Shown here: positions 16,893 through 26,299 of the stretch, one piece after another
How the letters are laid out: the number at the start of each line of letters is the position of its first letter
How positions within the stretch are numbered: the first letter of the stretch is position 1
NCBI GenBank assembly: GCA_944321125.1
Contig: CALUKD010000021.1
Location: 1-61,685, forward strand
From: Candidatus Butyricimonas faecavium
GTDB taxonomy: Bacteria > Bacteroidota > Bacteroidia > Bacteroidales > Marinifilaceae
Length of the DNA: 61,685 bases
Direction of reading: 5' to 3'
The notes under the pieces: model-generated
Told to the model about the DNA's origin: nothing
Databases searched by the model: none
What the model saw: only the letters and a program-made list of their open reading frames with translations
Translations under genes and position numbers: made by a program

Positions 16893-18329
16893 TCAATTAT
16901 ATTGGGTTTCACTTTCCGGTATCGGGAACACATAATTATTAGGAAAAACAGAAATTGTTCCACCTATTTCGGAAGCAGAGTACATTTCCGATGAATTTTT
17001 TCTTTTATAATAGAAAAACAATTGTCCTTCCAACCAAAATTCTCTATAATATTCCAAATTCAATTCTCCTTCGATACTCTGATACATTGGCATATCCGGC
17101 AAATTTCTAGCATGAAGTACTGTATTCAAATACTCTCTTGCAACCACTTCATTTTCCTCACATTCAGCTGCAATATAATAAGCTTCACTAACCCGTAACA
17201 TCGGGATCATCTGATTATAAAGAGTATCTGCATTTTCTGCTTTATATTTGGTTATTTCTTTGTAAGTAGCTCCACCATAATTGAAAGTACCCATATAGGC
17301 CCGATAGCGATAATCAGTCTGACGGTTCTCATACATATTCAAAACCACACCATCCAATGGAGCCAACATAGACGTGATCTTCAGATTTTCAGCATCAAAG
17401 TTATCCGTATAAATCGTATTCCTATTAACATTTTGCAAAGCAAATACCAATTCAGATGAAAATATTCGATCAGGATCATCCAACGAATTATTAATAACCG
17501 AACCATCAACCCAAGGGAATTTTTCTTCTTGTACATCAATCACTTCCTTTGCTGCCAAAAGTGCCGCTGACTTATCTCCCATATATAAGCAAACTCGAGC
17601 TTCCAACAATTTTACAGCAAAATAATTCATCCTTAACACCCTCCAACCATAAAATGAATTTGCCCCATTGGTAGCCTGCGGAGCCTGTGTAAAAATCGGG
17701 TCATCTTTCAAATAGATAACCGCTTCTCTCAAATCATCCAACACCGTCTTCATAAAATCTTCCGCACTCAAATACTCCGCCATAACCAACTGAAAATTTT
17801 TATAATAAGGTAATGTTACCCCACTATTATTAGCTGTTGTATAAACCGGACCATACAACCTGAAAAGATCAAAATGCAAGTAAGCTCTCAACGCTAAAGC
17901 CTCACCTTTAATCAAATTATAATAAGTATCTGATAAAACATCTCTCCGTTCCTCGCAGTTTTTCAAAATCAAGTTAACATTCGAAATCAAATGATAACCA
18001 GTTTCCCAGATATTGGCAATCCTACTTTCCATATTCAAACTAGTATAATTAAAGGTCATAGCTTGATATTTGCTCTCCGCATCTTTATTGATATTGTAAC
18101 GCTGTGCCATGATCTCCACCAGCTCATAGCTAAGTGCTTGTCCATATAATGCATTATCATTCAAATTGACATACACCCCATTAAGAGCCATCTCGAATCC
18201 TCGTTCCGTTGAAAAAGTTGCTTCTTCGGAGATTCGGTCATTAGGTTTCACGTCTAACCAATTATTGCAGGAAGAGATCATAAACCCAATCAATATAAAA
18301 TAACATAATTTTTTCATCATCCTATCCAT
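16893..18329 (-). CDS. SusD/RagB-family outer-membrane lipoprotein (locus 2)
   Basis: A 478-residue SusD-like protein. The leader ends at a lipobox cysteine near residue 21 (MISSCNNWLDVKP); the WLDVKP that follows is typical of the family. The TPR-like helices include GEALALRAYLHFDLFRLYG (about 143-161), a strong SusD signature. It binds ligand above the SusC pore. Its ATG shares one base with the susC stop (TAATG), so the two are translationally linked. A second start three codons in (MMKK) is possible. Confidence 0.95.
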   Translation of the reverse strand: MDRMMKKLCYFILIGFMISSCNNWLDVKPNDRISEEATFSTERGFEMALNGVYVNLNDNALYGQALSYELVEIMAQRYNINKDAESKYQAMTFNYTSLNMESRIANIWETGYHLISNVNLILKNCEERRDVLSDTYYNLIKGEALALRAYLHFDLFRLYGPVYTTANNSGVTLPYYKNFQLVMAEYLSAEDFMKTVLDDLREAVIYLKDDPIFTQAPQATNGANSFYGWRVLRMNYFAVKLLEARVCLYMGDKSAALLAAKEVIDVQEEKFPWVDGSVINNSLDDPDRIFSSELVFALQNVNRNTIYTDNFDAENLKITSMLAPLDGVVLNMYENRQTDYRYRAYMGTFNYGGATYKEITKYKAENADTLYNQMIPMLRVSEAYYIAAECEENEVVAREYLNTVLHARNLPDMPMYQSIEGELNLEYYREFWLEGQLFFYYKRKNSSEMYSASEIGGTISVFPNNYVFPIPESETQYN

Positions 18330-23022: not shown

Positions 23023-23568
23023 CTACAAGCCTGAAAATAAGAACAAAAACAAAGAAGGCTCTAGTTTTTTACGCAAGAAATCTAAGGCATTTGCCTTGTA
23101 TTTTTTTACCGAACTATCGGATAGACCTAATTTTTCCGCAATCTCCACATTTTTTAACCCTTCCATAAAGCTCATCTCAAAAACAATTTTTGCTTTCTCC
23201 GGCAACTCCTCGATAGCGCGATACAACAATGTCTGAGCCTCTTGATCAATCACCGAATTGGCAAAATAGGATGCATTCTCTAACTCCTGAACATACCGCT
23301 CCCGGGCTGAATTTTTCCGATGAATACTAATGATGTCATTTTTGATCGCCATATAAAGAAAAGCCTTGAACGTATACACCGAATCAAACTTATTTCTTCG
23401 TTCCCAAGCACTGAAAATAGCATTTTGTACGCAGTCTTCTGCTAGAAACTCGCTTTCCTCTCCCAAATATTTAGTGGCATATAAAATTAATCCCGGATAA
23501 ACATTCCGGTACAACAAATCCAGCTTTCCTTGCTGAAAATCAATCAGTATCTGCGCATTCCAATTCAC
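23023..23568 (-). CDS. ECF RNA polymerase sigma-70 factor, FecI-like (locus 2)
   Basis: A 181-residue ECF sigma factor with region 2 at about 10-85 (AEDCVQNAIFSAWERR core) and region 4 at about 120-172 (LPEKAKIVFEMSFMEG followed by the helix-turn-helix NVEIAEKLGLSDSSVKKYKANAL). It begins at a GTG: an in-frame TGA lies two codons before it, and no ATG occurs near the N-terminus, so GTG is the only sensible start. It should transcribe locus 2. A 35-bp palindrome shared with the neighbouring ATPase gene lies about 100 bp upstream and could bear on its control. Confidence 0.93.
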   Translation of the reverse strand: MNWNAQILIDFQQGKLDLLYRNVYPGLILYATKYLGEESEFLAEDCVQNAIFSAWERRNKFDSVYTFKAFLYMAIKNDIISIHRKNSARERYVQELENASYFANSVIDQEAQTLLYRAIEELPEKAKIVFEMSFMEGLKNVEIAEKLGLSDSSVKKYKANALDFLRKKLEPSLFLFLFSGL

Positions 23569-23666
23569 TTGTCAAGTTTTACCGTGTAAACTTACATAAA
23601 AATCTTTGATTTCTTGCATCACTTTTACAAAGAGAAAACAAGAATTGTAATTGGGCTATTTTCAGC

Positions 23667-23701
23667 GACTGATTATTTTATAAGTTATAAAACAATCAGT
23701 C
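23667..23701. repeat. Palindrome 1 flanking the ATPase gene
   Basis: A 35-bp inverted repeat centred on G23684 with one mismatch (arms 23667-23683 and 23685-23701). Its 33-bp core matches palindrome 2 at 30 of 33 positions, and two of the differences are compensating changes that keep the stem paired. It lies 10 bp after the ATPase stop and about 100 bp before the locus 2 sigma start. It could be a terminator, an operator for the sigma gene, or the border of a mobile cassette. Confidence 0.85.
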
Positions 23702-23710
23702 ACATCGTTT

Positions 23711-24841
23711 TTATTTAAACCAATCTCGTTTCAACCATGCCTCGAATAAAGGATCTTGAAACGTAATTTCATTACCCCGCACATCAATCACTTCCCGTTC
23801 CATGAGAGCTTGTTTTATTCTAACCACATTTCCAGAAGTACCGATCCGATAAACCTGCAATGTTTGTTTTGAACTTAATTGTTTTTCTCCCGCTATTAAT
23901 GCCCTCAAAAAACCGAGTTGGGCATTACTAAACGTTTCCATGCTATTCAGAAAAAGTAAACTCAACTGATCAATCAATCCATTATACGCTTCTTTAACAA
24001 TAGACGGTACTACTAATTCCTCCGTCCTAAGCCACACTTGTTGAGCTAGTTGCTGCACATAATACGGATGATTGTCCACCAATTCAACCAACAATTGAAT
24101 TTCATCCCGTTCAATAACCTTATTAGCCATCTGGAATTTTTGTCGGATAAACGGGATCCATTCTTCCGTTTCTATTTTTTGAAGAAACATCAAGTCTCCA
24201 AACTTATAAAAAGGCATAGAAACATTTGCAAACACATCCATCAGTATGTGCCGCTTGCTACCAAACAAACAATAAGCGACATGTGTATGCCGCTGCCAAT
24301 GTACCCTCAACTTCTTTTGAAACGCCAAAGAATCCCCGAAGTTAGCCACATTCTGAAATTCATCGATACAAATAATTAAACGAACATTTTTAAATACAGC
24401 CAAAGCTTCTGCCAAATCTAAAATATCATCCGGATTACGTTTCAATTCCTCCAAACCAATCCCAAAGGACAATTCACTCTCCACATCAGCCGTAAAAGAA
24501 ATCCGAGGAATCAAGCGAGCAAGGAAGTTTTTAGCATTTACGGCTACTTCTTCCCACTTAGAAGATACAGACATTAAAACTTCTTTCGCCAATAACGTAT
24601 AAAACTCTTCCTCTTCCCTCACGTTAAAAAGATCGATCATACATAATTTTACATTTTCTTCGGATATTAAGAGTTGTTTAGCTGCATGCGTCACTAACGA
24701 AGATTTTCCCCAACGACGTGGAGAAATAATAATCGTGTTAGTCAAGCTTCTGAAATTCTGCAACAAACGTTCTGTTTCTACTCGTCGATCAGTGAAATTT
24801 TGACCTGTAGCTATTTTCCCAAAAACAAAAGGCGTTTCCAT
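23711..24841 (-). CDS. AAA-type ATPase with C-terminal winged helix (archaeal-ATPase-like)
   Basis: A 376-residue P-loop ATPase. Walker A is SPRRWGKSS (S40-S48) and Walker B is LIICIDEFQN (about 155-164), with further AAA-type motifs up to about residue 275. The C-terminal 70 residues (RALIAGEKQLSS, VVRIKQALMEREVI, then FQDPLFEAWLKR) look like the winged helix of the archaeal-type ATPases (COG1672-like). Family members are widespread in archaea and Bacteroidetes, are often strain-specific, and have no settled function. The gene is single, lies between locus 2 and radA, and is bracketed by two nearly identical palindromes, the upstream one covering its promoter. Confidence 0.85.
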   Translation of the reverse strand: METPFVFGKIATGQNFTDRRVETERLLQNFRSLTNTIIISPRRWGKSSLVTHAAKQLLISEENVKLCMIDLFNVREEEEFYTLLAKEVLMSVSSKWEEVAVNAKNFLARLIPRISFTADVESELSFGIGLEELKRNPDDILDLAEALAVFKNVRLIICIDEFQNVANFGDSLAFQKKLRVHWQRHTHVAYCLFGSKRHILMDVFANVSMPFYKFGDLMFLQKIETEEWIPFIRQKFQMANKVIERDEIQLLVELVDNHPYYVQQLAQQVWLRTEELVVPSIVKEAYNGLIDQLSLLFLNSMETFSNAQLGFLRALIAGEKQLSSKQTLQVYRIGTSGNVVRIKQALMEREVIDVRGNEITFQDPLFEAWLKRDWFK

Positions 24842-24866
24842 ATTTCTTCATTTGCTTATTCTAGAA

Positions 24867-24897
24867 CAAATATAACTGATTATTTTGTAAGTTACAA
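24867..24897 (-). promoter_or_regulatory. Promoter of the ATPase gene, overlapped by palindrome 2
   Basis: On the minus strand a -33 TTG (24895-24897) and a perfect -7 TATATTTG (24867-24874) are 20 bp apart, the Bacteroidetes spacing. The palindrome at 24874-24908 covers the -33 element and the whole spacer, a position where a bound protein would block polymerase. Confidence 0.7.
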
Positions 24898-24908
24898 AAT
24901 AATCAGTT
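24874..24908. repeat. Palindrome 2 flanking the ATPase gene
   Basis: A perfect 35-bp inverted repeat with 17-bp arms about G24891. It lies 33 bp upstream of the ATPase start and 27 bp past the radA stop. Its core is shared with palindrome 1. By position it is both a candidate operator for the ATPase gene and a possible radA terminator. Confidence 0.9.
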
Positions 24909-24934: not shown

Positions 24935-26299
24935 TTAGCTAAACAACTCACGACAAATATCCCCCACTCGGGAAACAAATCTTACTTTTACATGTGCCGG
25001 AACTTTTGTCAAGGCTTTCTTATTTCCCGCCGGAACAAATATTTGTTGGAAACCGAGTTTTTCTGCCTCTAGTACCCGTTGCTCGATACGACTCACGGCA
25101 CGAATCTCTCCTGACAAACCGACTTCCCCTGCAAACACGGTATTCTTGGGTATCGGGGCGTCTATATTTGAAGAAAGAACTGCCATCACCACCCCTAAAT
25201 CCAAAGCCGGATCACTCACCCGTATTCCCCCGGCAATATTCAAAAACACATCTTTCGCTGCCAACCGGAACCCTACCCGCTTTTCCAACACGGCAAGCAA
25301 CATATTCAACCGTCGCGTGTCAAAGCCCGTTGCAGAGCGCTGGGGCGTCCCGTAAGCAGCCGTACTCACCAAAGCCTGTACCTCTAACAAAATCGTTCTA
25401 ACGCCTTCCATAGTGGCAGCAACAGCAACCCCACTCAAGTCCTGATCATGGTTGGATAACAACAACTCGGAAGGATTAGCCACCTGTCTCAAACCTGATT
25501 GTAACATTTCATAGATTCCGATTTCGGAAGTCGAACCAAAACGGTTCTTCATAGACCGCAAGATCCGGTACATATGTTGCTGATCCCCCTCAAATTGCAG
25601 AACTGTATCCACCATGTGTTCCAGAATCTTCGGACCGGCCAGCTGCCCATCTTTCGTGATATGCCCGATTAAAATAGTCGTGATCGTATTTTCTTTCGAG
25701 TAACGCAGCAACACGTTGGTACACTCCCGGATCTGTGATAAACTCCCCGGAATAGCATCCACGCTCTCTGTTGCCAGCGTCTGTATTGAATCAATAATTA
25801 ATAATCTCGGTTCAAGTGCACGTGAATGTTCTAGCACCGTTTCCAACGAGTTCCCTGAAAGAAACAAACAATCATCATTTTCCGCTCCCAATCGTTGTGC
25901 CCGCATCTTAATCTGTGACACACTCTCCTCCCCAGAAACATATAAAACCTTCCCACATCGATTATGCAAAGCAAATTGCAACACCAGCGTTGATTTACCT
26001 ATCCCCGGCTCTCCCCCCAGCAAAATCATAGAACCCGGTACGATTCCCCCTCCCAACACCCGGTTCAACTCCCCATCCCCGGTATCCATACGTTCATCAG
26101 AATTCGCCTTCACCTCCGACAACTTAAGAGGCCGCGAGGAACTCACTCCCACGATGGAAGTTACCCGGTTTCCCTTCGTAGAAACTTCCACTTCTTCCAC
26201 AAAACTATTCCACTCTCCACAAGTAGAGCATTTCCCTACCCATTTAGATTCCTTCGCCCCACAATTCTGACAAACGTACACAGTTTTTGTCTTAGCCAT
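24935..26299 (-). CDS. radA: DNA repair protein RadA
   Basis: A 454-residue RadA (Sms) of usual length. It has an N-terminal C4 zinc finger (C10, C13, C24, C27), a RecA-like ATPase with Walker A GGEPGIGKST (about 94-103), the RadA-specific KNRFG motif (about 250), and a C-terminal Lon-protease-like domain (about 330-454). It is a branch-migration helicase that processes recombination intermediates during homologous repair. It appears to be monocistronic; the neighbouring PBP gene is on the same strand but 355 bp upstream. Confidence 0.97.
   Translation of the reverse strand: MAKTKTVYVCQNCGAKESKWVGKCSTCGEWNSFVEEVEVSTKGNRVTSIVGVSSSRPLKLSEVKANSDERMDTGDGELNRVLGGGIVPGSMILLGGEPGIGKSTLVLQFALHNRCGKVLYVSGEESVSQIKMRAQRLGAENDDCLFLSGNSLETVLEHSRALEPRLLIIDSIQTLATESVDAIPGSLSQIRECTNVLLRYSKENTITTILIGHITKDGQLAGPKILEHMVDTVLQFEGDQQHMYRILRSMKNRFGSTSEIGIYEMLQSGLRQVANPSELLLSNHDQDLSGVAVAATMEGVRTILLEVQALVSTAAYGTPQRSATGFDTRRLNMLLAVLEKRVGFRLAAKDVFLNIAGGIRVSDPALDLGVVMAVLSSNIDAPIPKNTVFAGEVGLSGEIRAVSRIEQRVLEAEKLGFQQIFVPAGNKKALTKVPAHVKVRFVSRVGDICRELFS

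Follow-up and report, generated by a model that had tools for sequence, protein, structure and literature searches.

The ATPase gene described here most probably encodes a protein that recognizes operator units in its own promoter and thereby represses its own synthesis. We assign this model as a whole, autorepression included, a probability of about 0.85; recognition of its own promoter by the ATPase is strongly supported by sequence comparison, and autorepression is its likeliest effect. What the sequences display is a set of sites confined to the gene, spaced with a 15-bp period, held in register with the promoter and agreeing with the predicted recognition helix of the protein. Archaea and Bacteroidota commonly encode ATPases of this type, most of which have no known function. 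Being readable from sequence, a self-operator would provide a handle on them, and it raises the question of why an AAA+ machine, and not a small repressor, governs its own dose.

Two near-identical palindromes bracket the ATPase gene

The window, i.e. the whole 61,685-nucleotide stretch of DNA that was analysed, contains the following features at this locus:

23711..24841, minus strand: ATPase gene, AAA+/STAND-like, 376 aa (open reading frame list; Pfam ATPase_2 match below cut-off; AlphaFold; Foldseek)
24874..24908, no strand: palindrome 2, putative primary operator, covering the -33 box and the spacer at the ATPase promoter (family arrays, register)
24867..24874, minus strand: -7 box TATATTTG of the ATPase promoter, one base in common with the end of palindrome 2 (sequence)
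23667..23701, no strand: palindrome 1, second site, known from the genus only (genus genomes, downstream-copy search)
23023..23568, minus strand: FecI-type ECF sigma gene downstream of the ATPase gene, a possible, unproven target of palindrome 1
24935..26299, minus strand: radA, upstream neighbour, outside the system (TIGR00416; genus context variable)

As the preliminary description had reported, the gene lies between two near-identical palindromes of 35 bp, whose 33-bp cores are identical at 30 of 33 positions (91%), and two of the three differences between the cores are indeed paired. Palindrome 2 is perfect, with 17-nt arms and a 1-nt centre, and at its heart is a TGTAASTTACA unit set between degenerate symmetric flanks. 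The corresponding core of palindrome 1 in the window reads TATAASTTATA, a paired change, and its single mismatch becomes a G-U wobble when it is read as sense RNA. A search of the whole window for palindromes with 16-nt arms, a loop of 0-3 nt and at most one mismatch returned just these two, and ten simulated windows (second-order Markov) returned none. The 33-bp core, with up to three mismatches allowed, likewise occurs in its own 3.85-Mb genome at palindromes 1 and 2 alone.

Both palindromes lie at the coordinates given at the outset. Read along the sense strand, the last base of palindrome 2 is also the first base of TATATTTG, and a TTTG lies 20 bp upstream of that box, so the palindrome covers the -33 box and the spacer; its unit is centred 17 bp before the -7 box. 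Palindrome 1 starts 9 bp past the ATPase stop codon, and 98 bp separate its end from the GTG of the sigma gene.

The protein is predicted to be an Orc-like ATPase ending in a winged helix

The C-terminal winged-helix-like domain that had been suspected from the sequence is present in an AlphaFold model of the protein (mean pLDDT 87). It occupies residues ~306-374 and consists of helices 306-316, 325-330 and 336-348, a wing at 352-361 and a final helix at 364-374. The helix at 336-348 is the predicted recognition helix, and residues 334-338 at its start read GTSGN in the window protein. The Foldseek matches to the model are led by two archaeal PF01637 ATPases that align over nearly the full chain, PABY2304 (2qen, E 9e-15) and SSO1545 (2fna, E 2e-13), at 18-19% identity. 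They are followed by archaeal Orc1/Cdc6 proteins (1w5t, 2v1u, 2qby), the Orc proteins being 9-16% identical to the window protein, and TnsC is also among the fold matches. A profile search recovered the same two leading structures weakly (2fna, E 0.0027; 2qen, E 0.053). The window protein scores 24.3 bits against PF01637 (ATPase_2; E 3e-5), below the gathering score of 33.2 bits, and its AAA_14 match is also below the curated cut-off. All 81 aligned family members match PF01637 at E <=0.001 (best 2.7e-12), and the Walker A (PRRxGKxS) and Walker B (CxDEFQ) motifs are invariant among these 81 sequences. The model and its fold matches have the Orc1/Cdc6-type layout, in which an AAA+ domain is followed by a winged helix, and this modelled fold classes the window protein with SSO1545/Orc-like AAA+ ATPases that end in a winged helix. 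Membership of a defence or phage family was considered and ruled out, as no PADLOC anti-phage defence family and no PHROGs entry matched the window protein at E <=0.001.

Relatives carry 15-bp operator arrays in register with the promoter

We compared the flanking regions of the best 80 of 221 relatives found, located on genome contigs and 49-67% identical, together with 22 loci from the genus; one locus with only 30 bp of upstream sequence (L084) was excluded from the upstream statistics. The mean best self-match of the upstream sequence is 0.705 at a lag of 15 bp, as compared to 0.42-0.47 at the other lags from 8 to 25 (97 loci) and to lag-15 values of 0.418 for downstream sequence and 0.438 for shuffles. 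A lag-15 value of at least 0.6 is reached by 79 of 101 ATPase upstream regions versus 13 of 281 regions upstream of neighbouring open reading frames. Six of the latter reach 0.7, and five of these six are divergent, so that their 160 bp enter the ATPase's own intergenic stretch.

The link between palindromes and gene that the preliminary description had proposed holds among the relatives: 73 of 79 (L025-L104) carry upstream palindromes with a 15-bp period at the 0.6 cut-off, the misses being L025 (0.50), L040, L061, L077, L080 and L101. The genus orthologs (L003-L006) fall below it, at 0.53-0.57, because a single central unit is intact there. Among genus paralogs, 6 of 18 pass (L009-L012, L015 and L016), and among the 13 at ~22-27% identity only L012 and L016 do. 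In a set of 16 further members, the window's apart, 14 reach 0.6 (misses L149 and L158), with some start codons uncertain; one of the 16, L147, is also a place found by the GTAASTTAC array search described below.

The repeated unit is palindromic and reads TGT-N4-ACA or TGT-N5-ACA; GGT..ACC variants also occur, and TGTAAGTTACA, TGTTAGTAACA, TGTTTCAAACA, TGTATATACA and GGTAAGTTACC are examples of unit words. Fully symmetric words occur at 5.22 per kb upstream and at 0.047 per kb in the rest of the same 79 loci (one locus excluded). Such a word is present upstream at 46 of the 79 loci, and at none of these 46 does the word recur in the remainder of the locus. The upstream array would predict a binding site for most members of this ATPase subfamily. 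Three loci (L074, L083 and L097) have about four near-identical 15-bp units upstream.

The arrays hold a fixed position relative to the promoter. A TAnnTTTG motif, which we take to be the -7 box of the Bacteroidetes -33/-7 promoter consensus, is found within 80 bp before the start at 73 of 80 family loci versus 5 of 99 downstream controls. The unit nearest to the start is centred 15-17 bp before this box at 40 of the 66 loci that have both a box and a unit, and 31-32 bp before it, which is one period more, at 13, so 53 of 66 loci are in register; at the remaining 13 it lies 2, 12, 13, 29, 42-46 or 62 bp from the box. Units with an N5 spacer favour 17 bp (22 loci, the window included) and those with an N4 spacer favour 15 bp (14 loci). 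Two of 84 loci were excluded from the register and downstream-copy analyses for too short a flank, and 82 were searched. These distances place the array over the -33 box and the spacer, i.e. in the position of a repressor.

Array searches lead back to the ATPase family

Array patterns used without any protein query recovered the same association. The pattern GTAASTTAC-N6-GTAASTTAC was found at three places in three of 395 class genomes (its reversed control in one genome), and all three places are upstream of a family ATPase (E 1e-143 to 1e-172). A second pattern, GGTATWATACC-N4-GGTATWATACC, derived from the arrays of the 16 further members, was found at four places among 390 genomes (control 0); all four are upstream of a family ATPase, and each of these proteins has the helix sequence GTPRN. 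At all seven places the array ends 28-55 bp before the ATPase domain, and the seven proteins share 44-56% identity with their closest counterpart among the 81 aligned members. One of the seven places (G095) was already contained in the profile search of 149 class genomes, which located family members in 15 of them, the window's included. The family is scattered over gut and environmental Bacteroidota as a solitary gene with no conserved partner: 70 upstream open reading frames fall into 52 clusters and 70 downstream ones into 55.

The start of the predicted recognition helix tracks the operator

We were able to assign an operator word to 72 of the 81 aligned members; the nine without one were excluded from the helix-operator statistics. 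The N4/N5 spacing is best predicted by residues 338, 337, 334, 307 and 336, four of which lie within 334-338. The 25 best columns for spacing include 10 of the 27 positions in 322-348 as compared to 15 of 350 elsewhere (Fisher p 1e-6). Residue 338 is asparagine in 44 of 44 members with TGT-N5-ACA units and serine or alanine in 28 of 28 with TGT-N4-ACA units; on a tree of residues 1-300 the switch in spacing is a single change, so this tie to residue 338 is unreplicated.

The first inner base of the N5 units is more variable than the spacing, with seven changes on the tree. Within this class, Ser335 occurs with an inner T in 10 of 10 members, and Thr335 with an inner A in 25 of 33, the other 8 having an inner T. 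The association between residue 335 and the inner base gives p values of 2e-5, 0.008 and 0.04, uncorrected for kinship, once the set is thinned at 90, 70 and 65% identity, and independent pairs run in the same direction in 1.9 of 4 cases and in the opposite one in 0, which is not significant. Residues 321, 335 and 340 rank highest for the inner base; taken as a region, the helix shows just a mild enrichment for this base, with 4 of the 25 best columns. Genus paralogs ~40% identical agree with these assignments, GSSAN occurring with TTATTAGTAATAA and GTPQN with GGTATTATACC.

From these covariations, residues 334-338 at the predicted start of the recognition helix appear to track the operator sequence. 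Helix classes among the members include GTSAN, GSSAN and SSATS, and operator words in the family include TGTAAGTTACA, TGTTAGTAACA and TGTAATTACA. This variety would constitute a natural set of protein-DNA pairs of differing specificity and a possible source of orthogonal repressors for Bacteroides genetics.

Palindrome 1 is a feature of the genus

In six genomes of the genus, the 33-bp core occurs at nine places, all of them within the four genomes that bear an ortholog of the ATPase (2, 2, 3 and 2 places), and at none in the two genomes without one (G003 and G005). A dispersed repeat, which the preliminary description had named as an outcome that would break the link to the ATPase, is ruled out by this distribution and by the restriction of the core to two sites at this locus in its own genome. 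Eight of the nine places flank the ATPase gene. The ninth, in G002, is an extra palindrome before a sigma gene, 14 kb from the ATPase (L119, reverse strand, ~17980-18035). The 17-bp inner core, with at most one mismatch, is found once in G005, as an exact match, and G002 and G004 have one or two one-mismatch extras each. The sites are in the gene's own promoter and confined to the gene, the extra sites in G002, G004 and G005 being the exceptions. The exact copy in G005 (TTTTGTAAGTTACAAAA; L136, ~1496-1526, G005:C14:10363) belongs to an orphan palindrome that lies upstream of a gene judged OmpA-like by eye, in a genome without the ATPase ortholog, and is perhaps a left-over site.

A downstream copy of the upstream site (at least 17 of 20 bases) accompanies 4 of 4 genus orthologs versus 1 of 78 other loci, and that one (L103) lies in AT-rich, low-complexity sequence. 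The two cores are 1207 bp apart, start to start, in the window and G001 and 1204 bp apart in G002 and G004, and TGTAASTTACA is retained in palindrome 1 of G001, G002 and G004. The gene that follows varies: it is the FecI-type sigma gene in the window, whereas G002 and G004 have a different sigma gene there. The next 1 kb of G001 contains a single 111-aa open reading frame, ~400 bp on. The constant spacing of the cores and the variable following gene favour a role of palindrome 1 with the ATPase gene itself; it is probably an auxiliary operator that acts through looping, to judge from these comparisons, and possibly also has a role as an mRNA hairpin. The preliminary description had proposed self-regulation with reach to the sigma gene. 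Its first half is strongly supported at the sequence level by the arrays, the promoter register and the helix agreement; action on the FecI-type sigma gene is unproven, and palindrome 1 faces other genes elsewhere. An operator of the sigma gene in the family's register was rejected, as the centre of palindrome 1 in G002 is ~49 bp from the sigma -7 box (hand count), a distance that differs from the 15-17 or 31-32 bp of the family. A separate sequence that resembles the operator unit, TGTAAACTTACA, is located at 23585-23596 of the window, 16 bp upstream of the sigma GTG; it is also present in the sigma upstream region of G002, and the G004 and G005 copies differ.

Alternative readings of the sites

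The ATPase might instead activate, like MalT or IniR, both its own gene and, via palindrome 1, the FecI-type sigma gene. IniR, which has an SSO1545-like ATPase domain, is reported to be required for iniBAC induction (PMC5760070), and in the window, as in G002 and G004, palindrome 1 is followed by a gene for an ECF sigma factor. We nevertheless regard activation as unlikely, because in 46 of 66 loci the centre of the start-nearest unit precedes the -7 box by no more than 27 bp, which is a repressor position, because G004 no longer has a palindrome in front of the gene orthologous to the sigma gene of the window, and because 376 aa are too few to accommodate a MalT-like sensor domain.

The palindromes could also act as RNA hairpins, palindrome 2 ending the radA transcript and palindrome 1 that of the ATPase, which is the pair of terminators that had been listed among the first readings. 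Both are worth ~-16 kcal/mol as RNA, and palindrome 2 is terminator-like in a scan (8 sites found, 1.0 expected). Palindrome 1, which directly follows the ATPase stop codon, varies between genomes by paired changes, the window's odd pair being G-U. Palindrome 1 is nevertheless absent from the terminator-like list and preserves TGTAASTTACA in three relatives, palindrome 2 of G001 no longer stands behind radA, and neither the 15-bp arrays in their promoter register nor the helix agreement would be explained. Two plain terminators are therefore very improbable, an added hairpin role for palindrome 1 being a separate matter.

A mobile or recombining cassette, with the palindromes as its ends or as hot spots and the ATPase as a TnsC/IstB-like mover, draws on the rearranged locus. 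The ATPase unit adjoins radA in three genus genomes and is 18 kb distant in G001, where homology to the window picks up again at the first base of palindrome 2. The interval from radA to the sigma gene measures ~12-16 kb in four relatives versus 1.4 kb, holding the ATPase only, in the window. The further palindrome of G002 follows a short stretch like the ATPase 3' end, the family's occurrence is patchy (15 of 149 class genomes), its neighbours are rarely in common, and TnsC is among the fold matches. Against this, the downstream copy is, the low-complexity case apart, missing from the 78 other loci, the two genomes that lack the gene (G003 and G005) show no clean empty site, six close pairs of loci have a common upstream neighbour, and the arrays hold their promoter register. 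Palindromic ends as a family-wide property are accordingly most doubtful; local mobility is conceivable within the genus, where the locus has been rearranged and either the gene or its surroundings may have moved. In the radA neighbourhoods of the five relatives (L119-L124), G001 and G002 carry different FecI/FecR/SusC/SusD-like clusters by eye, and on the radA side G003, G004 and G005 have only parts in common with G001 and G002.

Finally, upstream-sequence statistics alone cannot name a binder, but an unrelated regulator of the ATPase family is scarcely credible, as the operator co-varies with residues 334-338 of the ATPase, paralogs within one genome have different arrays, and the array searches reach the ATPase family only, where other targets would be expected.

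A model for autorepression and its relation to known systems

In the autorepression model, the C-terminal winged helix of the solitary ATPase would read short palindromic units (TGTAASTTACA in the window) in its own promoter. Across the family the units recur at 15-bp intervals and keep register with the -33/-7 elements, and in that register the bound protein should block RNA polymerase. Repression would be tuned by ATP and probably involves dimers or oligomers arranged side by side on the array. The genus version has its array cut down to a single intact unit, which is embedded in a longer palindrome, and palindrome 1 would probably serve as an auxiliary operator that an oligomer bridges by looping the intervening 1.2 kb. 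We infer binding itself, repression in preference to activation, the role of ATP, looping and any other targets or signals. A period of 15 bp is out of phase with the helical turn. A more far-reaching version, which we consider tentative and rather doubtful, is that Bacteroidota contain an unrecognized family of one-gene systems in which an Orc-like AAA+ ATPase assembles on its own 15-bp iterons. It would form a spiral filament that depends on ATP, and a readable code linking five helix residues to the operator would keep paralogs in the same cell orthogonal; the job of such a domesticated initiator would perhaps be DNA bridging or looping and not plain feedback.

Searches of open-licence PMC papers yielded no description of arrays of this kind upstream of such ATPases, nor any DNA site for SSO1545 or PABY2304. 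By analogy, the nearest working counterpart appears to be Orc1-2 of Saccharolobus islandicus, an AAA+ and winged-helix regulator that is reported to bind to an element within the promoter of its own gene (PMC9738581). Orc1-2 is described there as a global regulator in DNA damage that has several targets and uses an ANTTTC hexamer (PMC9738581), whereas the family of the window protein has palindromic 15-bp arrays that are found at its own gene only. The mycobacterial IniR, a signal-transduction ATPase, combines an SSO1545-like ATPase domain with a DNA-binding domain and is reported to have a transcriptional role (PMC5760070). IniR comprises 818 aa with a MalT-like domain, in contrast to the 376 aa of the window ATPase, and the main text of that paper contains no palindrom- or autoregulat- wording (PMC5760070).

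The arrays over their own promoter resemble plasmid Rep iterons, and the family is rare on plasmids and phages. Iteron-bound plasmid Rep initiators have cognate repeat arrays over the promoter of their own gene. A plasmid or phage initiator was rejected for the family, as only 26 plasmid records (all <60% identity), 2 phage records and 6 viral loci were found. Two contigs labelled Coriobacteriales (Actinomycetota), with a flank G+C content of 52-64% (L062 and L088), carry a family member together with an AT-rich operator array, and reflect either interphylum transfer or misbinning.
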